This document shows positions 7,597 to 63,172 of a stretch of DNA of 64,000 nucleotides, piece after piece. Every line of letters starts with the position of its first letter. Position 1 is the stretch's first letter. Origin of the DNA: Sphaerochaeta pleomorpha str. Grapes (GTDB lineage: Bacteria > Spirochaetota > Spirochaetia > Sphaerochaetales > Sphaerochaetaceae); the NCBI RefSeq assembly GCF_000236685.1, contig NC_016633.1, positions 1,922,001 to 1,986,000 on the forward strand, in the 5' to 3' direction. The notes below the pieces were generated by a model, which worked only from the letters and a program-made list of their open reading frames with translations, was not told the origin of the DNA and did not search any database. A program made the translations under genes and the position numbers.

Positions 7597-8522
7597 GGAG
7601 CTTACCTCATTCCAGTCAGATTGGTCGAGACAGAAAGTAATCTACTACACTCAGCATAGGGTTTGACAGGTTTTTGTATTTGCGCTTGCAGCGATCTCTC
7701 TTCCTTTGTCCTCTCTGCCAAGATTACATACCATATTCAAGATTCACTTGCGGTAATTATTTTCCATCCAATGGACGGAGCAAATTACGAGTATCGGTAT
7801 ACTCGTTCTCGCAAAACGTTCGTAAATCCTTTGGAAAACATTTTTGGTAGTCGCCGTTAACATCTGCCATTGGTTGCCTGCTTTCAGTCAGAAAGGAATC
7901 CTCCATTTCTCACCGTTGGGGGTTGTTTCCATTTCTCTTATGACACTGCAATTTCAAAAGTAAATGTTCCGGTAATATATAAAAAATCACCCATGGAACA
8001 GCTACTGTCCCACAGATGTATAAAGCTCCATCTGTTGCTACAAATACTGTAGCCCGGCATTATACCCAAAGATAATGCCTGTTCAGTTTGTACTGTTGAG
8101 CGTGCATTCTTTTAAGAATGATCTGCAGTGCAAAGATACTACTATCAAGTATCTTTGAAAGCCCCGTTTTGTCAACAAATATTTCCGCAGAGAGTCTGAA
8201 AAGTTTAAAACTGCAATACTACCGTACTGGGGGGGGGAGAGCCCCCACAAGAAGGCTGAACCGATAGGAAGGAAAGATCATTTGCTTGGAGAAGTTCCTT
8301 TTCCTTAGATAGAAGATAATGAAGACCATGCCCAAACCGATACCTATGAGAGGTCAATCCAATTTCTTCCCATTGAAAATATATCGCTTGCCATGCATTT
8401 TGAAGTACTGGTTGCAGGAGATACACTCTGGTGCTTAATTATCCCTCCCGCTTTCCCACTGGCAATCGATTCTGGTTCAGCAATCAAAGGTCTTCCCAAG
8501 GCAAACTATTCGATATCAACCG
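7597..8522. other. Gene-poor, probably decayed stretch
   Basis: No ORF here has both a ribosome site and a recognisable domain; the short ones run in conflicting frames and look random. A run of nine G occurs around 8228-8236. Codon-like stretches on the minus strand (8205-8426, and a stop-rich stretch near 7900-8050) may be remnants of genes but I could not assign them. The region is followed by a clear regulator pseudogene, consistent with decay of a whole module. Confidence 0.5.
8131..8157. repeat. Perfect 10-bp inverted repeat
   Basis: CAAAGATACT, seven-base spacer ACTATCA, AGTATCTTTG. No T-tract follows on either strand, so it is not a normal terminator. It could be an operator or the end of a lost element. 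Confidence 0.6.
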
Positions 8523-24421: not shown

Positions 24422-26107
24422 TTATTTGTTGTAAGCCTCGTCATGTACTCCAAAGATTGCCCTTCCGCTGGGCTCGTTCATCTTCTTGAAGGCTTCGTCC
24501 CATTCCAGGGCAATGGCGGTGGAACAGGCAACGGAGGCTTCATGGGGAACACACTTTGCAGCACTTTCACTAGGGAAATGGCTGGCGAACAGGGAACGGT
24601 AATAATACTCTTCCTTGGTGGCAGGCGTATTGACGGCAAAGCGCTTAGAGGCAGATGCAAACTGCTCGTCTGTCACCGCTTCGCTTGTCATCTTTTTAAG
24701 TGTATCGATCCAGTTATACCCGACACCGTCGCTGAACTGTTCCTTCTGCCTCCAGGTTATCTCGGGAGGAAGAAAATCCTTGAAAGCCTCGCGAACAATC
24801 CACTTTTCAATAAGGGGCTTGCCGTTCTCTTGGATCGGGGACATCTTTGACTCGGGATTCAGGTTCATGGCAATATCCATGAACTCTTTGTCCAAGAACG
24901 GAACACGCCCTTCAACACCCCAGGCTGCAAGAGATTTGTTAGCCCTCAGGCAGTCATAGAGGTGCAGTTTACTCAACTTACGTACGGTCTCTTCATGGAA
25001 TTCCCTGGCATTCGGAGCCTTATGGAAGTAGAGATAGCCCCCGAAGAGCTCGTCACTCCCTTCCCCTGAGAGCACCATCTTGATTCCCATCGACTTGATA
25101 ACCCTGGCAAGCAGATACATCGGGGTAGCTGCCCTGATAGTGGTAATATCATAGGTTTCCAGATGATATACAACATCGCTGAGTGCATCGAGGGCTTCCT
25201 GGATGGTAAAATGTACCTCATGGTGAACCGTACCAATGAAATCGGCTGCAATTTTTGCTGCCTTCAAGTCAGGAGAACCCTCCAGACCTATGGCAAACGA
25301 ATGCAGACGAGGCCACCAGGCTGCTTCTGAGTCACCTGACTCTACACGTTTCTGGGCATACATGGCAGTGACAGCTGCAATAACCGAACTATCAAGTCCG
25401 CCTGAAAGCAACACCCCATAAGGAACATCACTCATGAGCTGGCGCTTAACTGCGGCTTCCAGACCCGTACGGACAGCTTCTACGCTGCTTGAGTTGTCTT
25501 TAACGTTGTCATAGCTCTCCCAGGAACGGGAATACCATTTGGTAGCAGCTTTGTCCGGGCTGTAGAAATACTGACCTGGGAAAAATTCCTCGATAGTCGT
25601 ACAGGTACCCTCAAGGGCCTTCAACTCGCTGGCGACATAATAGCGACCTTCACCGTCCCAACCCTGATAGAGGGGAATAATTCCCATATGGTCACGGGCA
25701 ATGAAATAGACATCTTTTTCCCTATCGTAGAGGGCAAAGGCAAAAATCCCGTTGAGTTCCTCAAGGAAATCGGGCCCTTTGTCCCTATAGAGAGCCAGGA
25801 TGACCTCACAGTCACTCTGGGTCAAGAATTCATAGGTACCTTCATACTGCTTGCGGATTTCCTGGTGATTATAGATTTCGCCGTTGACAGCAAGAACCAA
25901 ATTACCATCTTTGCTATAAAGCGGTTGTCCTCCACTGAGCGGATCGACGATTGCCAGCCTTTCATGGCTGATAATCGCGTCCGATCCCGTATAGATACCG
26001 GACCAATCCGGACCTCTATGACGAATCTTCCGCGACATGTCCAGTACCTTGGCCCGCAAGGGAGCACTGTCACCTTTGATGTCAAACATACCTACAAATC
26101 CACACAT
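24422..26107 (-). CDS. asnB: Asparagine synthase (glutamine-hydrolysing)
   Basis: 561 residues. The start at 26107 gives MCGFVGMF, where cysteine 2 is the glutaminase nucleophile exposed after methionine removal, and GGAGGT lies upstream. The N-terminal class II glutaminase domain has RHRGPDWSG and HERLAIVDP, and VNGEIYNHQEIRK. The C-terminal synthetase domain has the PP-loop LLSGGLDSSVIAA and LSGEGSDELFGGY. It makes asparagine from aspartate, ATP and glutamine. It follows argD by 82 bases, and that gap holds its own promoter and a hexaloop/terminator leader like those of glnN and the glutamate synthase operon. Confidence 0.95.
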   Translation of the reverse strand: MCGFVGMFDIKGDSAPLRAKVLDMSRKIRHRGPDWSGIYTGSDAIISHERLAIVDPLSGGQPLYSKDGNLVLAVNGEIYNHQEIRKQYEGTYEFLTQSDCEVILALYRDKGPDFLEELNGIFAFALYDREKDVYFIARDHMGIIPLYQGWDGEGRYYVASELKALEGTCTTIEEFFPGQYFYSPDKAATKWYSRSWESYDNVKDNSSSVEAVRTGLEAAVKRQLMSDVPYGVLLSGGLDSSVIAAVTAMYAQKRVESGDSEAAWWPRLHSFAIGLEGSPDLKAAKIAADFIGTVHHEVHFTIQEALDALSDVVYHLETYDITTIRAATPMYLLARVIKSMGIKMVLSGEGSDELFGGYLYFHKAPNAREFHEETVRKLSKLHLYDCLRANKSLAAWGVEGRVPFLDKEFMDIAMNLNPESKMSPIQENGKPLIEKWIVREAFKDFLPPEITWRQKEQFSDGVGYNWIDTLKKMTSEAVTDEQFASASKRFAVNTPATKEEYYYRSLFASHFPSESAAKCVPHEASVACSTAIALEWDEAFKKMNEPSGRAIFGVHDEAYNK

Positions 26108-26125
26108 ATTCAGTACCTCCAGATA

Positions 26126-26169
26126 CAAAAAAGACGTTCCTCTCCCTTAAGATTGGAACGCCTTTGTTC
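26126..26169 (-). promoter_or_regulatory. asnB leader: AAAGGC hexaloop hairpin overlapping a terminator
   Basis: Minus strand: GAAC-AAAGGC-GTTC (26169-26156) is a 4-bp stem with a six-base loop that has A at position 1 and G at 4. The same loop plus 3' side, AAAGGCGTTCC (26165-26155), pairs over 11 bp with GGAACGTCTTT (26140-26130), followed by a T-tract: an intrinsic terminator just ahead of asnB. The two structures exclude each other. This matches the leaders of glnN and the glutamate synthase operon. Confidence 0.72.
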
Positions 26170-26177
26170 TTGGGAGG

Positions 26178-26206
26178 ATAGTACTTGCTTCAGGCCAAAG
26201 ATGCAA
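26178..26206 (-). promoter_or_regulatory. asnB promoter within the argD 3' end
   Basis: Minus strand -35 TTGCAT (26206-26201), 17-bp spacer, -10 TACTAT (26183-26178). Expected start near 26171, two bases before the hexaloop hairpin. Confidence 0.55.
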
Positions 26207-27386
26207 GAGCCAGATCGACAATTGCCATTGCTTTATCAATATCACCCTTTTCTACAACCAAGGGAGGAACGAACCTGAGCACATCATATCCCGCACCCAA
26301 AACCAACAATCCCTGCTCAAAACAGGCATCTACAACCTTTCTTGGAGGAATTGATAACACCAACCCATCTAGCAAACCCCTGCCCCTTACAGAAAGGCAG
26401 AGTGTCGGGTATTTTATTACCAGCTTCTCCAGTTCCGACCGAAGGTAGGCACCCATTTTTTCCACGTGGGAACAAAGGTCCGTTTCTTGCAAACGCCCTA
26501 TCATTTCGCATGCACCAGCCATGGCCAGGGCATTGCCACCAAAAGTAGAGGCATGGTCGCCAGGAGAAAATACCCTATCGGCCTTCCCCTTGGTGACCAT
26601 TGCACCGGCAGGGACTCCCCCTGCAAGCGCCTTGGCCAAGGTTAGGATATCGGGCTGGACCCCATAGGTCTGGAAGGCAAACGGCTTTCCGCTCCGCCCC
26701 ATCCCGCATTGCACCTCGTCGAAAATCAAAAGCAGGTTCTTTTCGTCGCAGAGATCCCTCAACCCTTGGAGAAATTCCTTGGTTGCCGGGACGATGCCCC
26801 CTTCACCCTGGATAGGCTCGACCATAATGGCGCAAGTAGAGTCAGAAACCGTAGCTTTCACACTTGCAAGGTCATTGAAGAGTGCATAGGAGAATCCGGT
26901 TGGAAGCGGATCGAAATTGACATGGTATTTATCCTGCCCTGTGGCTGTAATGGCACCATAGGTCCTGCCGTGGAATGAATGGACCATGGTAACGATATCT
27001 GTCCGGATTGGGTCAGAGGAATGGCCGAACTTACGGGCAAGCTTCAAAGCAGCCTCGTTTGCCTCTGCCCCGCTATTACAGAAAAACACCCTGTCCATAT
27101 CGGCAAGCTCAGTCAAGGTCTTTGCCGCTTTGATGGCATAGGTATTGTAATAGAGGTTTGAACAGTGTAGCAAACCACTGTCCAGGACCCCTTTCAGAGC
27201 CTTGGTAAGGCCTGCATCGCCATAGCCAAGGGCGTTGACTGCAATGCCTCCGACAAAATCCAAGTATTGCTTCCCATCAACATCGGTAAGATAACAACCC
27301 TTACCACTGGAAAATACTACCGGGACCTGGCTATAGGTATCGAGCAGGTATTGTTTACCCGCATTGATCAGTGTCTGTGCTTCCAA
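26190..27386 (-). CDS. argD: Acetylornithine aminotransferase
   Basis: 398 residues, class III PLP aminotransferase. Visible motifs are LDFVGGIAVNALGY, FFCNSGAEANEAALKLARK, SFHGRTYGAI, IFDEVQCGMGRSG and the PLP lysine in LTLAKALAGGVP. It converts N-acetylglutamate semialdehyde to N-acetylornithine. The start is TTG at 27386, directly after the argB stop, with GGGAGG eight bases upstream; no ATG is available nearby. It is the fourth gene of the argCJBD operon. Confidence 0.94.
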   Translation of the reverse strand: MEAQTLINAGKQYLLDTYSQVPVVFSSGKGCYLTDVDGKQYLDFVGGIAVNALGYGDAGLTKALKGVLDSGLLHCSNLYYNTYAIKAAKTLTELADMDRVFFCNSGAEANEAALKLARKFGHSSDPIRTDIVTMVHSFHGRTYGAITATGQDKYHVNFDPLPTGFSYALFNDLASVKATVSDSTCAIMVEPIQGEGGIVPATKEFLQGLRDLCDEKNLLLIFDEVQCGMGRSGKPFAFQTYGVQPDILTLAKALAGGVPAGAMVTKGKADRVFSPGDHASTFGGNALAMAGACEMIGRLQETDLCSHVEKMGAYLRSELEKLVIKYPTLCLSVRGRGLLDGLVLSIPPRKVVDACFEQGLLVLGAGYDVLRFVPPLVVEKGDIDKAMAIVDLALASLA

Positions 27387-52158: not shown

Positions 52159-54249
52159 TTATACTGAGAAAAGCAGTTCTTCATAGGTCGGCAACGGCCA
52201 GGCTTTATCGGAAACCAACAATTCCATTTCATCACAGATAGCACGAACAGTAGCCATTTCGGGAAGAATCTGGGCATGGTAGAAACGTGCACTTTCGGTA
52301 ATGTCACTGATCATCTTTGCCTCAACTACAAGCTTCTCAAGGGTTTCTGTTTCTTTTGCAAGGCTATCGCATAGATTGCTCAACTGTGAAACCAGCTCGG
52401 TTTCATAGGACAGGGAAAGTGAGGAAACCAATGCATGCTTGCTTACAGCAGAGGAAGCGAGATTCCCTGTAAATTGGCTGACTGCTGGCATTATCTGCCT
52501 TCTGATCATATCAACCATGGTCAAAGCTTCAATATTGATGGTCTTCGAATAGTTTTCCATGACGATGTCATATCGGCTATGGATTTCAGTAGTCGAGAAA
52601 ATATTGAATTTCTTGAACACTTCGATATTCTTGGGTGCAATGAAAGTAGGCAGGGCATCAACTGTCGACTTAAGATTGAGAAGACCCCTACGGGAAGCTT
52701 CTTCAACCCATTCCGAGCTGTAGTTATTGCCGTTGAATACAATTCTACGGTGTTGCTGGTAGGTCTCCTTGACAAGTTTGGCCAGTTCAAGGGAGAAATC
52801 CTTTGCACCTTCAAGCTGTCTGGCAAAAATTTCCAAACGGTCGGCAATGATGGTGTTGAGAATGATGTTCGGACCAGATACGCTGAACGAAGAGCCAAGC
52901 ATGCGGAACTCAAACTTGTTTCCGGTAAAAGCAAACGGGCTGGTGCGGTTTCTATCAGTCGTATCCTTGGGGAAATGGGGAAGTACATGAACGCCAAGAA
53001 GCATCGACTGACGTGCTTTGTTCGCAGATACCGTACCATTGGCAATGGAATCGAGAATTCCCGTGAGCTCGTCACCGAGGAACATCGAAACGATGGCAGG
53101 AGGAGCCTCATTGGCGCCAAGACGGTGGTCGTTTCCAGCACTTGCAACAGAAACTCTCATTAAATCCTGATAATCATCGACTGCTGCAATGACGGCAACC
53201 AGGAAAAGCAAGAACTGCTCATTGTCCTTGGGACTATCACCAGGTTCAAGCAAATTGACGCCGGTGTCGGTGGAGATGGACCAGTTGTTATGCTTACCCG
53301 ATCCATTGACGCCTGCAAACGGCTTTTCATGAAGCAGGCAGACAAGGCCGTGACGGTCTGCAACCTTCTTCATCATTTCCATGGTGAGCTGGTTATGATC
53401 GGTTGCAATGTTGCTGCTGGTAAAGATGGGTGCAAGTTCATGCTGGCTGGGGGCAACTTCGTTGTGTTCCGTCTTTGCAAGGATTCCGAGCTTCCATAAT
53501 TCGGTATCGAGTTCCTGCATGAAGGCAGCTACCCGTGGCTTGAGACTACCAAAATAGTGGTCTTCCATCTCCTGTCCTTTGGGAGGACGGGCACCAAGAA
53601 GGGTCCTGCCAGCATTGATAAGGTCCTTGCGCTTGAGGAAAAGGGATTTGTCGAGAAGAAAATATTCCTGCTCGGGCCCAACGGTGGTAACTACACGCTT
53701 GACCTCGGTCTTTCCGAACAAATGGAGAATCCTGACAGCCTGTTCGCTGATAGCTTCCATGGAACGGAGCAACGGAGTCTTTTTATCCAATACTTCCCCG
53801 CTATAGGAACAGAAAGCGGTGGGAATGCACAGAGTCTTTTCCTTGATAAAGGCGTAGCTGCTTGGATCCCATGCAGTATAGCCACGGGCTTCAAAGGTTG
53901 CCCTCAGGCCACCGGAGGGAAAGGAAGATGCATCAGGCTCACCCTTGATCAATTCCTTGCCGGAGAATTCCAAGAGAGCAAGACCATCTTTTGTAGGGGT
54001 AATGAAGCTCTCATGTTTCTCTGCAGTAATTCCTGTCATAGGTTGGAACCAGTGGGTATAGTGGGTAACCCCATTGTCCAGAGCCCATTCTTTCATGGCA
54101 TGCGCGACCACGTTTGCAATGTTGAGGTCAAGGTCTTTGCCTTCCCGAGTTGTTTCTTTGAGGGCTTTGTATGTCTCCTTCGGCAGACATTCACGCATTT
54201 TCTTATCATTGAATACCATAGAACCAAAGTAATCTGCTACTGTTTCCAT
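52159..54249 (-). CDS. glnN: Glutamine synthetase type III
   Basis: 696 residues, the size of type III enzymes. It has GSIII features: VADYFGSMVFNDKKMRECLP at the N-terminus, THWFQPMTGITAEKHESF, TVGPEQEYFLLDKSLF (metal-binding E-x-E), NEVAPSQHELAP, GVNGSGKHNNWSISTDTGVN and GNDHRLGANEAPPAIVS. It joins ammonia to glutamate. The start at 54249 has GGAGG eight bases upstream; the earlier ATG at 54276 has none. A 170-base leader with hexaloop hairpins and a terminator precedes it, divergent from the glutamate synthase operon. Confidence 0.95.
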   Translation of the reverse strand: METVADYFGSMVFNDKKMRECLPKETYKALKETTREGKDLDLNIANVVAHAMKEWALDNGVTHYTHWFQPMTGITAEKHESFITPTKDGLALLEFSGKELIKGEPDASSFPSGGLRATFEARGYTAWDPSSYAFIKEKTLCIPTAFCSYSGEVLDKKTPLLRSMEAISEQAVRILHLFGKTEVKRVVTTVGPEQEYFLLDKSLFLKRKDLINAGRTLLGARPPKGQEMEDHYFGSLKPRVAAFMQELDTELWKLGILAKTEHNEVAPSQHELAPIFTSSNIATDHNQLTMEMMKKVADRHGLVCLLHEKPFAGVNGSGKHNNWSISTDTGVNLLEPGDSPKDNEQFLLFLVAVIAAVDDYQDLMRVSVASAGNDHRLGANEAPPAIVSMFLGDELTGILDSIANGTVSANKARQSMLLGVHVLPHFPKDTTDRNRTSPFAFTGNKFEFRMLGSSFSVSGPNIILNTIIADRLEIFARQLEGAKDFSLELAKLVKETYQQHRRIVFNGNNYSSEWVEEASRRGLLNLKSTVDALPTFIAPKNIEVFKKFNIFSTTEIHSRYDIVMENYSKTINIEALTMVDMIRRQIMPAVSQFTGNLASSAVSKHALVSSLSLSYETELVSQLSNLCDSLAKETETLEKLVVEAKMISDITESARFYHAQILPEMATVRAICDEMELLVSDKAWPLPTYEELLFSV

Positions 54250-54353
54250 TCCCTTTTCCTCCAAAGCAATTTTCATGGGGTATCTGGCTACTCCCTTCGT
54301 CAGTCTGAACGCCGATTGGCCGCGACAGAAAGGAGAGAGCCACCCAACCCCTT

Positions 54354-54371
54354 CCCGATTTCTGTATCGGG
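54354..54371 (-). promoter_or_regulatory. Second hexaloop hairpin in the glnN leader (ACAGAA loop)
   Basis: Minus strand CCCGAT-ACAGAA-ATCGGG: a perfect 6-bp stem with a six-base loop that again has A at 1 and G at 4. It lies downstream of the terminator, unlike the usual ANTAR target order. Confidence 0.5.
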
Positions 54372-54421
54372 AAAAAGAGAAAGGCGCCGTAGCCCAATTA
54401 GAGACTACAGCGCCTTTGCTG
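54369..54421 (-). promoter_or_regulatory. glnN leader: AAAGGC hexaloop hairpin overlapping a terminator
   Basis: Minus strand: CAGC-AAAGGC-GCTG (54421-54408). The loop and 3' side, AAAGGCGCTGTAG (54417-54405), also pair over 13 bp with CTACGGCGCCTTT (54392-54380), followed by TCTCTTTTTC. So the small hairpin and the terminator exclude each other. The loop has A1 and G4. Confidence 0.75.
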
Positions 54422-54429
54422 ATGCCACC

Positions 54430-54459
54430 TTTCTACTGCAAATAAGCCTTGCTTGTCAA
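54430..54459 (-). promoter_or_regulatory. glnN promoter
   Basis: Minus strand consensus -35 TTGACA (54459-54454), 18-bp spacer, weak -10 TAGAAA (54435-54430). Start expected near 54423, immediately before the hexaloop hairpin. Confidence 0.55.
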
Positions 54460-54504
54460 CGAATTAACCCAAAAAAGTGTAAAAATATATTTTTAGCCAC
54501 CCTC

Positions 54505-54533
54505 GTGACAAAGTTTTCCATCTTCTGTATGAT
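54505..54533 (+). promoter_or_regulatory. Promoter of the glutamate synthase operon
   Basis: -35 GTGACA (54505-54510), 17-bp spacer, -10 TATGAT (54528-54533). Start expected near 54540, about nine bases before the hexaloop hairpin. The region between this and the glnN promoter (54460-54504) is A/T-rich without a further clear site. Confidence 0.6.
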
Positions 54534-54548
54534 GATTCCAATTAACTC

Positions 54549-54620
54549 TGGACAAAGACGTCCACCAAAAAAGACTTGCAAAAGGTAAGTCTCGTTTGGT
54601 GGGCGTCTTTTTCATTTTTT
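54549..54620 (+). promoter_or_regulatory. Glutamate synthase operon leader: AAAGAC hexaloop hairpin overlapping a terminator
   Basis: TGGAC-AAAGAC-GTCCA (54549-54564) is a 5-bp stem with a six-base loop (A1, G4). The loop and 3' side, AAAGACGTCCACCAAA (54554-54569), also pair over 16 bp (one G-U) with TTTGGTGGGCGTCTTT (54595-54610), then TTCATTTTTT: a strong terminator. Within its loop is a further AGACTT/AAGTCT stem. GAGGGAG, the ribosome site, follows at once. Confidence 0.78.
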
Positions 54621-54633
54621 GAGGGAGAACACC

Positions 54634-55737
54634 ATGGACGAATATCACCAACGATTACCACTTGAGGGAGAGGAACGGTATTCCAGCGGATGTGCAATCA
54701 GTGGCATCATCAGCAAGAAAGGAACCCGATTCTCCGGAAGAAGCGCTATCACGTCGATTAGCGTGATGCACGACCGTTCCAACGGTCTTGGGGGCGGATT
54801 CGCAGGCTATGGGATTTATCCCGAGTACAAAGATTTCTATGCCTTCCATATATTCTATTACGGCAATGAGGCCAAGAAAGCCTGTGAAGATTACCTGGAA
54901 GAACATTTCGATTTGATCAACCTGTCAAAAATCCCTACAGAGAAACATCCCAATATTACCGATGAACCCCTGATCTGGAGATATTTTGTCACTCCGCTCC
55001 CGACAAAACTGGCAAGCAGCCAACTAGATGAGAAGGAATATACTGCCCGTTGCGTAATAGCAATCAATACAAATATCAAGGGAGCCTATGTCTTTTCCTC
55101 CGGAAAGAACATGGGTGTCTTCAAAGCCGTCGGGTATCCGGAAGACGTCGGTGAATTCTACCGCCTTGACGACTATAAAGGGTATTCCTGGACTGTACAC
55201 GGTCGGTATCCTACCAACACCCCCGGCTGGTGGGGAGGGGCACATCCCTTCGCACTTCTTGACTATTCGGTAGTGCATAACGGGGAAATCTCCTCCTATG
55301 ACGCCAACAGGCGTTTCATCGAGATGTTCGGGTACCATTGCACCCTCCAGACCGACACCGAGGTCATCACCTATATGATCGACTATCTGAACCGTCGGCA
55401 AGGCTTGACCCTTGAAGAGCTGGCACACGTAATTGCAGCCCCCTTCTGGTCGACCATCGAGAGGAAAAGCGAGGCTGAGAAAGCTGAGTACACTTTCTTG
55501 AGAAATACGTTTGCAAGCATGCTCATAACCGGACCTTTCTCCATCATCCTCGGATTCAACGGAGGACTGATGGCGCTCAACGATCGCTTGAAGCTCCGTT
55601 CCCTGGTAGCAGCAGAAAAAGACGATATGGTGTATCTCGCAAGCGAAGAGGCCGCTATCAGGATTATCGAACCAAACCCAACCAGGGTGTGGCACCCAAG
55701 TGGCGGGCAACCGGTAATCATTACCCTCGACAAGTAA
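54634..55737 (+). CDS. Split glutamate synthase, glutaminase (GATase II) subunit
   Basis: 367 residues. It corresponds to the amidotransferase domain of large GltB and of archaeal-type split enzymes. The nucleophile is probably C20 in SSGCAISGIISKKG, exposed after propeptide removal. WTVHGRYPTNTPGWWGGAHP and VVHNGEISSYDANRRFIEM are class II glutaminase signatures. It releases ammonia from glutamine for the synthase subunit at 55750. The start at 54634 has GAGGGAG upstream. It is the first gene of the operon after the hexaloop leader. Confidence 0.92.
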   Translation: MDEYHQRLPLEGEERYSSGCAISGIISKKGTRFSGRSAITSISVMHDRSNGLGGGFAGYGIYPEYKDFYAFHIFYYGNEAKKACEDYLEEHFDLINLSKIPTEKHPNITDEPLIWRYFVTPLPTKLASSQLDEKEYTARCVIAINTNIKGAYVFSSGKNMGVFKAVGYPEDVGEFYRLDDYKGYSWTVHGRYPTNTPGWWGGAHPFALLDYSVVHNGEISSYDANRRFIEMFGYHCTLQTDTEVITYMIDYLNRRQGLTLEELAHVIAAPFWSTIERKSEAEKAEYTFLRNTFASMLITGPFSIILGFNGGLMALNDRLKLRSLVAAEKDDMVYLASEEAAIRIIEPNPTRVWHPSGGQPVIITLDK

Positions 55738-55749
55738 AAGGAATGGCAT

Positions 55750-57255
55750 ATGGCAATCAATTATTTATATCCCGACTTTGAAGTACTGAGAGATACGCAG
55801 CGATGCATTACCTGCAGGGTCTGCGAACGCCAATGTGCAAACGAAGTACATAGTTTTGACAAAGACACCAACAGGATGGTCGCTGACGACAGCAAATGCG
55901 TCAACTGCCACCGATGCGTCTCCCTCTGCCCCACCCATGCCTTGAAAATCGTCAAGACTGACCATTGTTTCAAGGCCAATGCAAACTGGAAAGGCGAAGT
56001 AATCCAGAATATCTACCGTCAGGCAGGAAGCGGCGGGGTACTCCTGGCTTCCATGGGAACCCCCAAAGACTACCCTGTCTATTGGGATAAGATGCTTATA
56101 AATGCCTCCCAGGTAACAAACCCCTCCATCGACCCACTGCGTGAGCCGATGGAGACAAGAACCTACCTTGGGCAGAAAACGCCAAAGATCAAGCGCGATG
56201 AAAACGGCAAGATTATCACCGACACCCCTCCCCAGCTTACCTTGAACATACCTATCATGTTCAGCGCGATGTCCTACGGGTCCATCAGTTACAACGCGCA
56301 CAAAAGCCTTGCCCTTGCAGCGGAGAAGCTGGGCATCTATTACAACACCGGGGAAGGTGGTCTGCACGAGGACTTCTATACATATGGAAAAAACACCATC
56401 GTGCAGGTTGCTTCGGGTAGATTCGGGGTACACCCCGATTACCTGAACACAGGCGCTGCAATCGAGATCAAAATGGGGCAAGGTGCAAAACCAGGAATCG
56501 GCGGGCACCTCCCCGGGGCAAAAATAGGGGAAGATATCTCCAAGACCCGAATGATCCCCGAGCACGCAGATGCCATCAGTCCGGCTCCTCACCATGATAT
56601 CTATTCCATCGAGGATTTACGTCAACTTGTCTATGCCCTCAAAGAAGCGACCGAGTATAAGAAACCTATCATTGTAAAGGTTGCCGCTGTCCATAACATT
56701 TCTGCCATCGCATCAGGCATTGCCCGTAGCGGTGCCGATATCATTGCCATCGACGGATTCCGTGGAGGCACAGGTGCTGCCCCTGCCATGATCAGGGATA
56801 ACGTCGGGATTCCTATCGAACTTGCCCTTGCCAGTGTCGACCGCCGGCTCAGGCAGGAAGGAATCAGAAACAATGTCAGTTTGGTAGTCGGGGGTTCCAT
56901 CAGAAGCAGTGCCGATGTCATCAAGGCCATCGCCCTCGGTGCCGATGCCATCTATGTCGCAACCAGTGCTTTGCTTGCCCTTGGCTGCCACCTTTGCAGG
57001 ACTTGCCAGCTGGGCAAGTGTAACTGGGGTATTGCAACCCAACGGCCTGAGCTGGTAAAGCGTCTCAACCCTGAAATCGGGTCAGAACGGCTGGTCAACC
57101 TCATTACTGCCTGGAACCATGAGATCAAGGAGATGATGGGGGGAATGGGTATCAACTCAATAGAGGCCCTCAGAGGCAACCGCCTCATGCTCAGGGGCAT
57201 CGGGCTTACCGAAACCGAATTGGAGATCCTTGGGATTATGCACGCTGGACAATAG
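55750..57255 (+). CDS. Split glutamate synthase, FMN-binding catalytic subunit with ferredoxin domain
   Basis: 501 residues. The N-terminal 65 are a two-cluster ferredoxin (CITCRVCERQC at 19-29; CVNCHRCVSLC at 50-60). The rest is the glutamate synthase barrel: FSAMSYGSISYNAHKSLALA, NTGEGGLHEDFY, KPGIGGHLPGAKI, DGFRGGTGAAP and GCHLCRTCQLGKC, the third iron-sulfur site. It joins ammonia to 2-oxoglutarate and reduces to glutamate. It follows the glutaminase gene by 12 bases. Confidence 0.94.
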   Translation: MAINYLYPDFEVLRDTQRCITCRVCERQCANEVHSFDKDTNRMVADDSKCVNCHRCVSLCPTHALKIVKTDHCFKANANWKGEVIQNIYRQAGSGGVLLASMGTPKDYPVYWDKMLINASQVTNPSIDPLREPMETRTYLGQKTPKIKRDENGKIITDTPPQLTLNIPIMFSAMSYGSISYNAHKSLALAAEKLGIYYNTGEGGLHEDFYTYGKNTIVQVASGRFGVHPDYLNTGAAIEIKMGQGAKPGIGGHLPGAKIGEDISKTRMIPEHADAISPAPHHDIYSIEDLRQLVYALKEATEYKKPIIVKVAAVHNISAIASGIARSGADIIAIDGFRGGTGAAPAMIRDNVGIPIELALASVDRRLRQEGIRNNVSLVVGGSIRSSADVIKAIALGADAIYVATSALLALGCHLCRTCQLGKCNWGIATQRPELVKRLNPEIGSERLVNLITAWNHEIKEMMGGMGINSIEALRGNRLMLRGIGLTETELEILGIMHAGQ

Positions 57256-57264
57256 GAGAATACA

Positions 57265-57693
57265 ATGAGAAGGGTTTACGTCAATGAACAATGGTGCCTT
57301 GGATGTCATCTCTGCGAATTTTACTGTGCCTATGCAAATTCCGGTGAAGAGAATATGGTCAAGGCCCTCAAGGATGCCATTATCAGGCCGCGCATCAAGG
57401 TAGAGGAAAAGGACGGCATCAGCTTTGCAGTCAACTGCCGTCACTGCAGTGAGCCACTATGCGTGAAAAGCTGCATTGCAGGCGCACTTTCCCAGACAGA
57501 TGGGCTGATCGTAATCGACCAGAGTAAATGTGTAGGTTGTTTTTCCTGCATCATGGCCTGTCCGTACGGGGCTTTGATGCCGAACGAAAATGGCGTTATG
57601 CAAAAATGTGAACTGTGTACTTCCAATACACATGGAAACCCCGAATGCGTCAAAGGTTGCCCGAACAAGGCAATCGTATTTGAGGAGCGGTGA
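57265..57693 (+). CDS. 4Fe-4S ferredoxin-like electron-transfer subunit
   Basis: 142 residues with at least three or four cluster sites: WCLGCHLCEFYC, CRHCSEPLCVKSC, CVGCFSCIMACPYGAL and CELCTSNTHGNPECVKGCP. This HycB/CooF-type layout links electron carriers to redox enzymes. It lies between the synthase and the flavoprotein, so it should pass electrons between them. Confidence 0.9.
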   Translation: MRRVYVNEQWCLGCHLCEFYCAYANSGEENMVKALKDAIIRPRIKVEEKDGISFAVNCRHCSEPLCVKSCIAGALSQTDGLIVIDQSKCVGCFSCIMACPYGALMPNENGVMQKCELCTSNTHGNPECVKGCPNKAIVFEER

Positions 57694-57694
57694 T

Positions 57695-58927
57695 ATGAAC
57701 TATGTAATCATTGGAAATTCAATTGCCTCGGTCGGATGTATCGAGAGCATCAGGAAAATCGACGAAGCGGGAACCATTACAGTCATTGGAGATGAAGCCC
57801 ACCAGTGTTATTCCCGTCCGCTCATCTCCTACCTGCTCGAAGGAAAGACCACCAAGGAAAAAATGGTCTATCGATCACCCGAGTTCTATGAACAGAACCA
57901 GGTAAAGCTTGTTCTGGGAAAAAAGGCAACCCGAATCGATTCCGGCGAAAAACACGTAATCTTGGAGGATGGGGCAACCTATCCCTATGACAAACTCCTT
58001 GTCGCTACCGGTTCCTGCCCGTTCGTCCCTCCCATGAAAAACCTTGAAGCAGTGAAGAACCGTTTCTCGTTCATGAAACTCGACGATGCCAATGAACTTG
58101 AGAAATCAATTGCAAAGGATAGCAGAGTCCTGATCATCGGGGCAGGTCTCATCGGCCTTAAATGTGCCGAAGGTATCTACAACCGGGTAAAATCAATAAC
58201 CGTCGTTGACCTGGCAAAAAGGGTTCTTCCAAGCATCCTTGACGAAGAAGGGTCCAGCCTGGTAGAAAAACACCTGCACGAAAAAGGCATAACCTGCATC
58301 CTGGGCGACAGCGTGTCCGAATTCCAGGATAATGATGCATTGTTGAAAAGTGGGACTGTAGTCGGTTTCGATATTGTGGTACTCGCCGTAGGCGTCCGGC
58401 CCAATGTTTCGCTGGTCAAAGATGCAGGGGGAGCTACCAACCGGGCCATCTTGATCGACGAGCAGTGCAAGACCTCCCTCGAGGACATCTATTCGGCAGG
58501 AGACTGTACAGAGGGCGTAGACTTTGTCAGTGGGGAACGAAAGGTCTTGGCCATTCTTCCCAATGCCTATATGCAGGGAGAAATTGCCGGAAAGAACATG
58601 GCAGGAGAGAGTGCCTCTTTCGACAAAGGCATGGCAATGAATGCAATCGGGTTCTTTGGTTTGCATATCATTACGGCTGGGTCCTATATCGGGGAAGCTA
58701 TCGTAATTCGCTCAAAAGCAGGCTATAAAAGGCTGTTTATCCAAAACGGCCATCTCGTTGGCTATATCCTTATCGGGGACATGATCGACCGGGCGGGTAT
58801 CTATACGTCCTTGGTCAGGAACAAGACGGATCTTTCCACAATCGATTTCGAATTGATAAGCGAACAGCCCATGCTGATGGCGTTCGCGAAGAAAGACCGG
58901 GTACAGAAACTGGGAGATGCACAATGA
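57695..58927 (+). CDS. NAD(P)/FAD-dependent oxidoreductase of the glutamate synthase complex
   Basis: 410 residues from the ATG at 57695 (GAGGAG upstream, two bases after the ferredoxin stop). FAD site MNYVIIGNSIASVGCIESI, second dinucleotide site VLIIGAGLIGLKCAE, and the FAD-end motif DIYSAGDCTEG. It belongs to the nitrite reductase/rubredoxin reductase-like group and would feed NAD(P)H electrons to the ferredoxin and synthase subunits. The FAD loop G-N-S-I-A-S is a variant of G-x-G-x-x-G, as often in this group. Confidence 0.92.
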   Translation: MNYVIIGNSIASVGCIESIRKIDEAGTITVIGDEAHQCYSRPLISYLLEGKTTKEKMVYRSPEFYEQNQVKLVLGKKATRIDSGEKHVILEDGATYPYDKLLVATGSCPFVPPMKNLEAVKNRFSFMKLDDANELEKSIAKDSRVLIIGAGLIGLKCAEGIYNRVKSITVVDLAKRVLPSILDEEGSSLVEKHLHEKGITCILGDSVSEFQDNDALLKSGTVVGFDIVVLAVGVRPNVSLVKDAGGATNRAILIDEQCKTSLEDIYSAGDCTEGVDFVSGERKVLAILPNAYMQGEIAGKNMAGESASFDKGMAMNAIGFFGLHIITAGSYIGEAIVIRSKAGYKRLFIQNGHLVGYILIGDMIDRAGIYTSLVRNKTDLSTIDFELISEQPMLMAFAKKDRVQKLGDAQ

Positions 58928-59649
58928 AAACCATACAAGTAGGATTGACTCATTTCCAGGACTTGAATCGGGAAATACGGGAATGTCAGGATACGGAATT
59001 ACAGCTTGACGATGTGAATGGCCAACGCTACATAGGTTGTGCTCTCAAAAACAAGGCTATCACCATAAACGGGACAGCAGGAAATGCCCTCGGTTCCTAT
59101 CTCGATGGATCTACCATAACGGTAAACGGCAATGCCCAGGATGCTACAGGGGACACCATGAATGAAGGCTCTATCATCGTCCATGGAAGTTGTGGCGATG
59201 CCGCCGGGTATTCCATGCGTGGTGGCCGAATCTTTATCCGTGACAGCTCAGGCTACCGGGCAGGTATCCATATGAAAGCGTACCAGGAAAAACAACCTGT
59301 TTTAATCGTCGGAGACAGGGCTGGCAGTTTTCTCGGTGAGTACCTCGCAGGAGGCACGATTATCGTCCTTGGATTGAACCAAGAAGGAAAACCTCCTGTA
59401 GGATATTTCTGTGGAACAGGTATGCATGGTGGAAAAATTTACCTCAGATGTGATACTCTACCATCAGACCTACCGCAACAGGTTTCAGCCTCTGATGCAA
59501 CGAAAGAGGACATGGATGAGATTTCTGACAATCTTGAGGCTTTTTGCCAAGTCTTTGACCTAGACAAAAAAGCTGTCTTATCGCACCATTTTTTCGTATT
59601 AAGGCCAAACTCAAGCACGCCTTACAAGATGTTGTATACCTATGTATAA
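58924..59649 (+). CDS. Split glutamate synthase, GXGXG beta-helix subunit
   Basis: 241 residues. The repeats of GNALGSYLDGSTITVNG, GDTMNEGSIIVHG, GDAAGYSMRGGRIFIRD and GSFLGEYLAGGTIIVLG form the right-handed helix of the GltB C-terminal domain, ending with GTGMHGGKIYLR. In the large enzyme this domain supports the ammonia tunnel. The ATG overlaps the flavoprotein stop (ATGA). Together, 54634, 55750 and 58924 rebuild a GltB-like chain from separate proteins. Confidence 0.93.
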   Translation: MKTIQVGLTHFQDLNREIRECQDTELQLDDVNGQRYIGCALKNKAITINGTAGNALGSYLDGSTITVNGNAQDATGDTMNEGSIIVHGSCGDAAGYSMRGGRIFIRDSSGYRAGIHMKAYQEKQPVLIVGDRAGSFLGEYLAGGTIIVLGLNQEGKPPVGYFCGTGMHGGKIYLRCDTLPSDLPQQVSASDATKEDMDEISDNLEAFCQVFDLDKKAVLSHHFFVLRPNSSTPYKMLYTYV

Positions 59650-59665
59650 TCCCGGGAGGACAGCA

Positions 59666-60946
59666 ATGACCAATACACAAGATGAAGTAATGCAGTTTAT
59701 TAAGGAGCAGGATGTACGTTTTGTCCGCCTTGTTTTCTGTGATATCTTCGGTCATATGAAGAATATCTCCATCTCGGAGGATGAACTGCCAAGGGCCTTC
59801 GCTTCAGGTATTTCTTTTGATGCATCAGCGGTTAAAGGCTTCCTCCAGATTGATGAAAGTGACCTATTCCTGTTCCCCGACCCCTCAACCCTGGCAGTTC
59901 TTCCCTGGCGCCCTTCACAGGGAAGGGTTGTAAGGTTTTTCTGTTCTATCATGCGTCCTGACGGTACACCGTTTGAAGGTGACGGCCGGTCCCTTTTACA
60001 GTCAAAAGTCAGGGAAGCTGCCCTTGATGGTTTCAAAATGGGAATAGGCCCCGAATGTGAATTCTACCTTTTTAAAACCGATGAAGAAGGCATGCCTACC
60101 ATGAAACCTCTTGACAATGGCGGTTATCTTGATGTAGCACCATTAGATAAAGGAGAGAACGTCCGGCGGGAAATTTGCCTGACCCTCCAGCAAATGGGTT
60201 TTTATACCGAGCGATCACATCATGAGACAGGACCTGGACAGAATGAGGTCGACTTTAAATATGGGTCGGCCTTGGAAGCCGCAGATAACTTTGTGACGTT
60301 CAAGTCGGTCGTAAAGACTATTGCTGACAGAAGCGGACTCTTTGCTTCTTTTATGCCAAAACCGTTGGTTGGAGAAAGCGGAAGCGGGCTCCATATAAAT
60401 CTCTCCCTTTCACGGGATGGGATAATGGACAAGCGTTTCGAGGAAGCTATGACCGCAGGAATACTCAGAAGGATCAGGGAAATCACCTTGTTCCTCAATC
60501 CGATGGTCAATTCCTATGAACGCCTGGGTGCATTTGAAGCCCCGCGGTACGTAGGCTGGGGAAAGGCTAACAGGTCGTTACTTATTCGTGTTCCTGAGTC
60601 AAGCGGGGAATATAGGAGAATCGAGGTGAGGTCCCCAGATCCTTCCTGCAATCCATACCTGGCGTTTTCATTGCTGATCGTCTCGGCATTGGAAGGGGTA
60701 AAGGAAAATTTGAAAATGCCTTTGGAAGATAGCGGGGATGCTTATCAGAAAAAGGATGGCACCACCCTTCCTTCAACCCTTGCAGAGGCTATGGAGCTTG
60801 CCGAGAACAGCAGTTTTGTGCGCTCGGTCATCCCTGAACGGTTATTAACTTATTTCCTTGAGGCTAAGAAAGCCGATTGGAAAGCCTATGAAGAAAGCAG
60901 CGACAAAACACAAGAGAGCCGCAAGCCTTTCTTTTTGACAACCTAA
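59666..60946 (+). CDS. glnA: Glutamine synthetase type I (short form)
   Basis: 426 residues. FVRLVFCDIFGHMKNISI near the start, FDASAVKGF, GPECEFYLF (metal ligands), HHETGPGQNEVDFK, MPKPLVGESGSGLHINLSL and EVRSPDPSCNPYLAFS are all present. The length, without the insertion and adenylylation-loop tyrosine motif of long forms, fits the GSI-alpha type, controlled by feedback and protein partners. GGGAGG precedes 59666. It is the second glutamine synthetase of the window and sits in front of the ANTAR gene. Confidence 0.94.
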   Translation: MTNTQDEVMQFIKEQDVRFVRLVFCDIFGHMKNISISEDELPRAFASGISFDASAVKGFLQIDESDLFLFPDPSTLAVLPWRPSQGRVVRFFCSIMRPDGTPFEGDGRSLLQSKVREAALDGFKMGIGPECEFYLFKTDEEGMPTMKPLDNGGYLDVAPLDKGENVRREICLTLQQMGFYTERSHHETGPGQNEVDFKYGSALEAADNFVTFKSVVKTIADRSGLFASFMPKPLVGESGSGLHINLSLSRDGIMDKRFEEAMTAGILRRIREITLFLNPMVNSYERLGAFEAPRYVGWGKANRSLLIRVPESSGEYRRIEVRSPDPSCNPYLAFSLLIVSALEGVKENLKMPLEDSGDAYQKKDGTTLPSTLAEAMELAENSSFVRSVIPERLLTYFLEAKKADWKAYEESSDKTQESRKPFFLTT

Positions 60947-60960
60947 TCCCAGGAGGCTGT

Positions 60961-61530
60961 ATGCTTCGTGTCCTTGTAGCTTCATCAACAATGAAAGGGT
61001 GTGAATCCCTTTCAGCCCTCATCAGAGAGTATGAGGGATATGTTGACATCGCTACCAGTGCAAGTTGCAGTGAAACCAGGAGAATGGTCTTCGATAATGA
61101 ATTCGACCTGGTAGTAATAAATGCCCCCTTGATCGATGAATCAGGGGAGGATTTGGCTTCCATGATTACCGAACAGACCTTAGCCGGTGTAATCATGGTG
61201 GTCAGAAGCCAATATCTGGAGACCACTGAAACCATCATGGGAGCAAGTGGAGTCCTGGTTGTGGCAAAGCCGGTAATCAAGCAATTGTTTTTCCAGACGT
61301 TAGGTCTCGCACGTTCGATGCGCAGGCGTCTTACCGTGCTTCAAAACGAAAACAACAAATTACAAAAGAAAATTGAAGAAATAAAACTCATAGATCGGGC
61401 AAAATGGACGTTGATACAGAATCTTGGTATGGATGAACAGCAAGCACATCGTTATATTGAGAAACAGGCGATGGATTTGAGAAAAAGCCGATATGAGGTT
61501 GCTTCAGCAATCCTGAAAACATATCAATAA
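60961..61530 (+). CDS. ANTAR-domain antiterminator with degenerate receiver domain
   Basis: 189 residues. Residues 1-115 have the fold pattern of a response-regulator receiver, but the phosphorylated aspartate is replaced by N54 ([11 protein letters not shown]) and the acidic pair is missing (VLVASS); only K103 (VAKPV) remains. A coiled coil (about 118-143) leads to ANTAR (about 140-187): [20 protein letters not shown] and [20 protein letters not shown], with the conserved A, A-M and R-x-x-x-x-x-V-A positions. ANTAR proteins bind hexaloop hairpins and prevent termination. Phosphate-independent control is implied. GGAGG precedes the start, 14 bases after glnA. Similar glnA-linked ANTAR genes are known in clostridia. 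Confidence 0.92.
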
Positions 61531-61570
61531 GATGAAGAAAAACGAAGAAGAAATTATAGAGGAGATACGT

Positions 61571-63172
61571 ATGTCCAAACACATATTTGTAACTGGTGGA
61601 GTAGTATCAGGGCTAGGAAAAGGTATTACGGCAGCATCGCTCGGGCGATTGCTCAAGGCACGTGGGTTGAAAATTGCAGCACAGAAGCTTGATCCATACA
61701 TGAATGTAGACCCCGGAACGATGAGTCCCTACCAACATGGGGAGGTATTCGTAACCGATGATGGTTCGGAAACCGACCTAGACCTCGGGCATTATGAACG
61801 GTTTATTGACGAGGACCTGAACAAATATTCCAACATGACCAGCGGAAAAGTCTATTGGAATGTCCTTACCAAAGAAAGAAATGGGGAATACCTGGGATCT
61901 ACCGTCCAGATTATCCCCCATGTTACCAATGAAATCAAAAACTTCATCTATGCACTGGGGGAAAAGACCGGGGCCGATGTAGTCATTACCGAAATCGGGG
62001 GAACTACCGGTGATATCGAAAGCCAGCCTTTTTTGGAGGCCATCAGGCAAATCGGGCATGAAGTCGGTCAAGGCAATTGCCTGTTCATCCATGTAACTTT
62101 GATCCCTTACCTCCGCAGCAGCGGGGAACACAAGAGCAAGCCTACCCAGCACTCGGTAAAGGAACTGATGGCCTCGGGCATTTTCCCCGATATCATCGTC
62201 ACGCGCAGCGATGAACCGATCGAACAGGGAATCAAAGACAAGATTGCCCTTTTCTGCAACGTCAAGGAAGATTGCGTAATCGAGAACAAGACCGTTCCCG
62301 TCCTCTACCAGGCACCCATTATGCTCAAAGAAGAAAATCTTGACGATATCGTCTGCAGGGAATTGAACCTCAAGACAAAACAACCTGATCTGAAAGAATG
62401 GAAAGCAATGCTCAGCCGCATCGAGAAAGCCGACAAATGTGTAAAGATTGCGTTGGTTGGTAAATATATCCAATTGCATGATGCCTATCTCTCTGTCATG
62501 GAAGCCCTCAAACATGCCGGCTGGGAGAACGAGAGCCAAGTCGCCATCAAATGGGTCGACTCGGAAAGCGTGACCCCTGACACGGTCTCAATGTTGCTTG
62601 CAGATGTACAGGGTATCCTTGTTCCCGGTGGTTTTGGAGACCGCGGTATCGAAGGCAAGATCGAGGCAGCAAGGTTTGCCAGGGAAAACAATATCCCCTA
62701 TCTTGGGATTTGCCTGGGAATGCAGATTGCAGTAATCGAGTTTGCCCGGAATATTTTGCATATGGAAGATGCGAACTCCCGTGAATTCAACAAAAAGTCA
62801 AAACACACGGTCATTGATTTGATGCCCGACCAGAAGGGAAACATTCCCAAGGGCGGCACCATGCGCCTGGGTTCCTATCCCTGTGCAATAGCTGACGGAA
62901 CCCTTATGCAGAAAGCTTACAAACAAGAAGCCATAGACGAACGGCATAGACACCGATACGAATTCAACAACGAGTATCGCACCGAAATGACCGAAGCAGG
63001 TCTGATAATTTCCGGTACCAGTCCTGACGGCAACCTGGTAGAGGCTGTTGAGTTGAAGGATCATCCTTTCTATCTCGGCGTGCAATACCACCCCGAGTTC
63101 AAGAGCCGCCCGAACAGGGCCCATCCGGTATTCAGGGAATTCATCACTGCCTCCTTGAAGACGGTACTGTAG
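61571..63172 (+). CDS. pyrG: CTP synthase
   Basis: 533 residues. The start at 61571 has GAGGAG upstream; the in-frame codons from 61532 are not part of the family. The synthetase domain has [40 protein letters not shown] and [11 protein letters not shown]. The glutaminase domain has [18 protein letters not shown] with the nucleophilic cysteine, and [10 protein letters not shown]. It makes CTP from UTP and glutamine. It starts 40 bases after the ANTAR gene, so it is likely part of the same glutamine-linked operon. Confidence 0.96.

Follow-up and report, generated by a model that had tools for sequence, protein, structure and literature searches.

In Enterococcus faecalis, antitermination by EutV needs both hairpins of the target leader, P1 and P2 (Ramesh et al. 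2012, PMC3369931). P2 is a small hexaloop hairpin, with A and G at loop positions 1 and 4 (A1/G4), that overlaps an intrinsic terminator, and P1 carries a second A1/G4 hexaloop, a short linker upstream. In the 2022 structure of EutV, the ANTAR dimer holds a single hexaloop at any one time; its authors kept the need for both hexaloops in antitermination, gave no final reason for the second one, and asked that natural single-hexaloop sites be looked for (Walshe et al., PMC8934654). As far as the accounts in citing papers go, NitR of Clostridium saccharobutylicum acts by antitermination and induces the GS/GOGAT genes under nitrogen limitation (Stutz et al. 2007, via PMC6316151 and PMC4676874). 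Clostridium thermocellum has a cluster of this kind, and the expression of its ANTAR gene shifts together with that of the cluster (PMC4676874).

We have analyzed a window of 64,000 nucleotides from Sphaerochaeta pleomorpha str. Grapes, in which the leaders of glnN, of the operon from glutamate synthase (glt) through glnA to an ANTAR gene, and of asnB are, judged from sequence and its conservation, very probably attenuators read by the ANTAR protein (60961-61530) at a single hexaloop at the 5' end, with no P1.

Genes of the locus

The ANTAR gene (60961-61530, plus strand), which encodes a regulator with a degenerate receiver domain, is the only one in the complete 3.59-Mb genome. It is read rightwards together with the glutamate synthase subunits and glnA, and glnN is read to the left; the domain matches of the gene products thus bear out the divergent operons of the original prediction. 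The type III glutamine synthetase (GSIII) gene glnN occupies 52159-54249 on the minus strand (GSIII_N, 3.8e-81). Its longest open frame begins at 54276, but the start is probably the ATG at 54249, from the N-terminus METVADYFGS.VFND kept in relatives. On the plus strand, a domain search assigned 54634-55737 to a glutamate synthase protein with a class II glutamine amidotransferase domain, 55750-57255 to one with the FMN/FeS domain, and 57265-59649 to an FeS protein combining the pyridine-nucleotide oxidoreductase and the GXGXG subunit of glutamate synthase. They are followed by glnA for type I glutamine synthetase (59642-60946, plus strand), directly 5' of the ANTAR gene in a conserved gene order. 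The order in C. saccharobutylicum is glnA-nitR.

CTP synthase, a glutamine-using enzyme, is encoded at 61532-63172 on the plus strand, starting 2 bases past the ANTAR gene, of whose operon it may be a further member. Elsewhere in the window, a nickel/cobalt (NiCo) riboswitch aptamer (Rfam RF02683, E 3.9e-15) lies at 8003-8096 on the minus strand.

The glnN and glt leaders

The predicted glnN promoter (54430-54459, minus strand) consists of TTGACA (54459-54454), an 18-nt spacer and the weak -10 element TAGAAA (54435-54430), with a predicted +1 at about 54423. The hairpin CAGC[AAAGGC]GCTG (54421-54408, loop 54417-54412) follows, a putative antiterminator by sequence and covariation with a folding energy of -4.4 kcal/mol on its own. 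Its loop and 3' arm double as the 5' side of an intrinsic terminator at 54372-54417 including the T-rich tail (stem-loop 54417-54380; 16 bp, 6-nt loop). Another glnN promoter, given by a promoter scan at 54511-54484, was rejected because congeners and orthologues keep TTGACA-18-TA(A/C)AA(A/G), for example with TACAAA or TAAAAG, right before the hairpin (7 nt 5' of it).

On the opposite strand, the predicted glt promoter (54505-54533, plus) has GTGACA (54505-54510), 17 nt and TATGAT (54528-54533), with a predicted +1 at about 54540. The putative antiterminator TGGAC[AAAGAC]GTCCA (54549-54564, loop 54554-54559; sequence and covariation) folds alone with -6.3 kcal/mol, and its loop and 3' arm again build the 5' arm of the terminator (54554-54616 including the T tail, stem 54554-54611), a 16-bp stem with an inner 8-bp stem-loop on top (MFE -39.1, z-score -9).

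The original prediction had placed here, on each strand, a hairpin of 4-5 bp with loop AAAGGC (glnN) or AAAGAC (glt), and these were found at the site with A1 and G4 in both loops. It was also right that loop and 3' side serve as the terminator 5' arm, but both terminators have 16-bp stems, instead of 13 and 16 bp. A distance of about ten bases between promoter and hairpin does not hold for glt when counted from the end of the -10 element (15 nt), and this places the hairpin about 9 nt past the predicted start.

A third leader at asnB

A third copy of the leader sits 28 kb from the glnN/glt pair, ahead of asnB for a glutamine-hydrolysing asparagine synthetase (24422-26107, minus strand). This leader (26122-26171, minus) consists of the hairpin GAAC[AAAGGC]GTTC (26169-26156) and an overlapping terminator, and is conserved at asnB in congeners (L167, L195). 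A candidate promoter, TTGCAT-17-TACTAT (26178-26206, minus), lies 8 nt before the hairpin and is, like the glnN promoter of the window, weak by consensus. The leader begins about 20 nt past the stop of the upstream gene (26190-27386, minus), so near that its terminator may also end the upstream transcript.

With asnB the window holds three perfect hexaloop-terminators, where dinucleotide shuffles gave 0.05 on average and never more than 1; this makes chance an unlikely source of the copies, as originally argued. A covariance model run over the 3.59-Mb genome gave E < 1e-5 only for the glnN, glt and asnB leaders; weaker matches (844655, 3393273 and others) were rejected, having no hexaloop stem on inspection.

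Conservation in other genomes

For comparison, we collected 80 loci that encode relatives of the ANTAR protein. The module recurs in Bacillota and Spirochaetota in one of two forms, glt-glnA-ANTAR with a divergent glnN or just glnA-ANTAR; Synergistota and Fibrobacterota contributed one member each. In almost every locus the gene directly 5' of ANTAR is glnA. Hexaloop-terminator leaders with A1/G4 were found at glnN or asnA-glnN, glt, glnA, amt, carA and gdhA genes, with Clostridia and spirochaetes among the hosts (asnA, amt, carA and gdhA were recognised by eye from the N-termini). The leader precedes 28 of 36 glnN genes, and the other eight have it ahead of an upstream asnA gene or in a 3-bp version. 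It was likewise detected at 22 of 25 glt genes, two of the remaining three visibly carrying one, and at none of the 26 copies of a second glt gene that served as internal control.

Over 46 leaders, the hairpin is paired in 100% of cells (covariation 0.60 versus 0.23 when shuffled) and the terminator in 96.7% (0.68 versus 0.24), figures that are somewhat inflated, as leaders entered the main set only with a terminator and a hairpin of 4 bp or more. In a fairer set, spirochaete leaders collected with a covariance model of the terminator only, the hairpin is kept in 28 of 29. Relatives keep hexaloop and terminator together, and not the terminator without the hexaloop stem, the outcome that would have spoken against the original prediction. 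Hairpins of the glnN type (AGC..GCU) resemble P2 of the dual motif, and those of the glt type (AAC..GUU) resemble P1.

One amt leader (L183, G101 C11:1156112) has tandem attenuators, CAGC[AAAGGC]GCTG followed by AAAACAC[AAAGGC]GTGTTTT. Spirochaete ANTAR proteins occupy two places in the tree, Sphaerochaeta near Sedimentibacter and Treponema near Tyzzerella (L009, L016, L044 and L074 versus the window, L002 and L003), which suggests from the sequences that the module reached spirochaetes by separate transfers.

One hairpin in place of two

Compared with a dual-hexaloop target, the leaders have the equivalent of P2, and an ANTAR gene is present in the same genome. The loops had been predicted to fit the established rule for ANTAR targets; this stands for A1 and G4, but the established target is a dual hairpin and only one hairpin is present here. 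The minimal single-hexaloop motif of Walshe et al. (2022), one A1/G4 hairpin in an ANTAR-encoding genome, is what the leaders contain.

All ANTAR antiterminators that have been tested need P1 (PMC3369931, PMC8934654), and P1 could have been missed in leaders that are in fact classical dual-hexaloop targets, being degenerate or farther upstream, or with transcription starting farther upstream. A P1-like hairpin does occur in one of 22 glt leaders (L003) and in two amt leaders. It was found in none of 27 glnN leaders, in none of 28 spirochaete leaders and in none of the other 21 glt leaders, and its frequency over 83 leaders (4, with 1.4-3.0 expected) is that of shuffled sequence, but the same test recovers P1, with linkers of 7-14 nt, in six leaders of EutV-type loci. 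Moreover, a promoter TTGACA-17-TATAAT typically ends 9-13 nt before the hairpin in relatives, so that any P1 would fall inside the promoter. A missed P1 is therefore improbable. The predicted promoters would not have transcripts start well upstream of the hairpins, another outcome that would have spoken against the original prediction, and by their closeness they would make the hairpin the very first part of the transcript.

A P1 hidden inside the terminator, as another hexaloop near its apex, was rejected too, since only three leaders have one; these are Ruminococcus amt leaders (L057 10773, L058 2807, L061 7298), with a second A1/G4 hexaloop in the terminator apical stem.

The hairpin stem has a median of 5 bp and -4.5 kcal/mol, and EutV-type P2 stems are mostly 3 bp with a median of -2.75, the latter from six comparison leaders only. 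The stronger target hairpin may stand in for P1.

Tie between leader and ANTAR gene

Among 100 genomes of the family, leader and ANTAR gene are both present in 53 and both missing in 40, and one has the ANTAR gene only and six the leader only (Fisher p 2.5e-20, not corrected for phylogeny). The one genome with ANTAR only does have a leader on inspection, and the six with leader only include some incomplete assemblies or weak ANTAR matches. GSIII (glnN) occurs in 97 of the 100, and in 14 relatives with a close glnN and no ANTAR match no hexaloop-terminator leader was found upstream of glnN. The co-occurrence is partly trivial, since the ANTAR gene and a leader are often parts of a single operon, but a functional tie is suggested by leaders apart from the ANTAR gene, at asnB or on other contigs.

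These data also bear on whether the leaders merely terminate constitutively or insulate the divergent genes from each other, the hexaloop being a by-product of terminator sequence. A 16-bp stem with T tail is indeed complete by itself as a terminator. However, when small hairpins with the 3' arm at the start of a terminator were scanned for without bias as to loop size or sequence, 59 had a hexaloop and 4-20 had a loop of any other given size; 58 of the 59 have A1 and G4, which were not imposed and which chance would not yield. The covarying hairpin, mutually exclusive with the terminator, has its 5' arm outside it, and the leader is missing where the ANTAR gene is missing, so that plain terminators are very unlikely. 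Equally unlikely is attenuation by another effector served by the hexaloop (riboswitch, T-box or translated leader peptide): nitrogen genes are known riboswitch targets, but the leaders match no Rfam family at gathering score and no credible one at E up to 5, the conserved part of 14-16 nt plus terminator could not accommodate an aptamer, and 5' of the hairpin lies the promoter.

The ANTAR protein

The ANTAR domain (PF03861) of the 60961-61530 product scores 60.6 bits, well above the curated cut-off of 27.3. With EutV numbering placed on the homologues via the SMNKR motif, the RNA-contact residues E160, M172 and R175 of EutV are invariant in 80 of 80 homologues, and the position of Y164 is His in all 80. 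The receiver is a pseudo-receiver: the phospho-Asp is replaced by Asn, the acid pocket by Ser/Ser, and only the Lys is kept, so that the set of acid pocket, phospho-Asp, Thr/Ser and Lys of a phosphorylation-controlled response regulator is not found in this protein. Asn replaces the phospho-Asp in 71 of the 80 homologues, and seven keep Asp. A receiver lacking acid pocket and phospho-Asp makes a partner protein likelier than a kinase, and the signal is, on these residues, probably contact with such a partner and not phosphorylation.

In AmiR, a pseudo-receiver is already known to be held by a partner (PMC8934654), and by adjacency GlnA is the obvious candidate, as a guess. Control of the receiver by protein contact, most simply with adjacent GlnA as in GS-TnrA of B. 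subtilis, is compatible with single-hexaloop attenuation and agrees both with the loss of the receiver residues and with the position of glnA next to the ANTAR gene. Adjacency may, however, reflect co-regulation only, and the seven homologues with Asp speak against control by contact; we regard the proposal as tentative and, on balance, doubtful.

Proposed mechanism and its meaning

RNA synthesis would start shortly 5' of the hexaloop hairpin, at a distance of a few nucleotides. Without further input, the longer terminator would draw the hairpin's loop and 3' arm into its own stem, and transcription would stop. When nitrogen assimilation is needed, the active ANTAR protein would bind the A1/G4 hexaloop of the single 5'-terminal hairpin and lock it, whereby the terminator would be blocked and the polymerase could pass. 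Since the ANTAR gene lies inside one of the controlled operons, positive feedback would result. No separate upstream recruitment hairpin (P1) would take part, unlike in the studied eut, nas and ami leaders.

We infer binding, readthrough and induction under nitrogen limitation. The original proposal that an ANTAR protein reads the leader and thereby prevents the terminator has come through comparative tests of conservation, A1/G4, co-occurrence with ANTAR and contact residues, all at the level of sequence. Against single-hexaloop attenuation stands that both hairpins were published as necessary for EutV (PMC3369931, PMC8934654), and one may not suffice.

We consider it likely that the leaders represent a widespread class of ANTAR antiterminators with one hexaloop at the extreme 5' end, no recruitment hairpin and glnA-linked pseudo-receiver readers, forming the main switch by which many Clostridia and several spirochaetes attenuate ammonia-assimilation genes. 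If so, the two-hexaloop rule would be a trait of the eut/nas/ami branch and not of ANTAR regulation generally. The leaders would be natural single-hexaloop sites, and numerous ones, of the kind asked for after the 2022 EutV structure, and they would mark out, for spirochaetes and many gut Clostridia, a regulon of nitrogen assimilation made up of glnN, glt, glnA, amt and asnA/asnB.

Comparison with known systems

With EutV/EutW of E. faecalis (PMC3369931, PMC8934654) the system shares the A1/G4 hexaloop over an intrinsic terminator, the combination of receiver and ANTAR domains, and E160, M172 and R175. It differs in having no P1, a hairpin predicted at the 5' end of the RNA, a stronger stem, a receiver without phosphorylation residues, and His for Y164. 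AmiR of Pseudomonas is likewise a pseudo-receiver ANTAR protein, with His at the Y164 position in the alignment, but the amiE leader is dual-hexaloop (PMC3369931), and here no amiC-like partner gene lies beside the ANTAR gene. The glutamate synthase genes of Desulfotomaculum also have ANTAR-associated leaders at nitrogen-assimilation genes; those matches came from a dual-hairpin model, outside which single-hexaloop leaders fall (PMC3369931).

The NitR system resembles the present one in encoding an ANTAR regulator with glnA; in the accounts of citing papers NitR acts on GS/GOGAT genes, at which the present system has leaders. Since antitermination of these genes by NitR has been reported, the regulatory principle is already known. 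Beyond what those citing papers relate of NitR, the present system also has leaders at glnN, asnA/asnB and amt, and a spirochaete host; within the open-licence literature, the single 5'-terminal hexaloop architecture proposed here, its breadth and the spirochaete regulon would be new.
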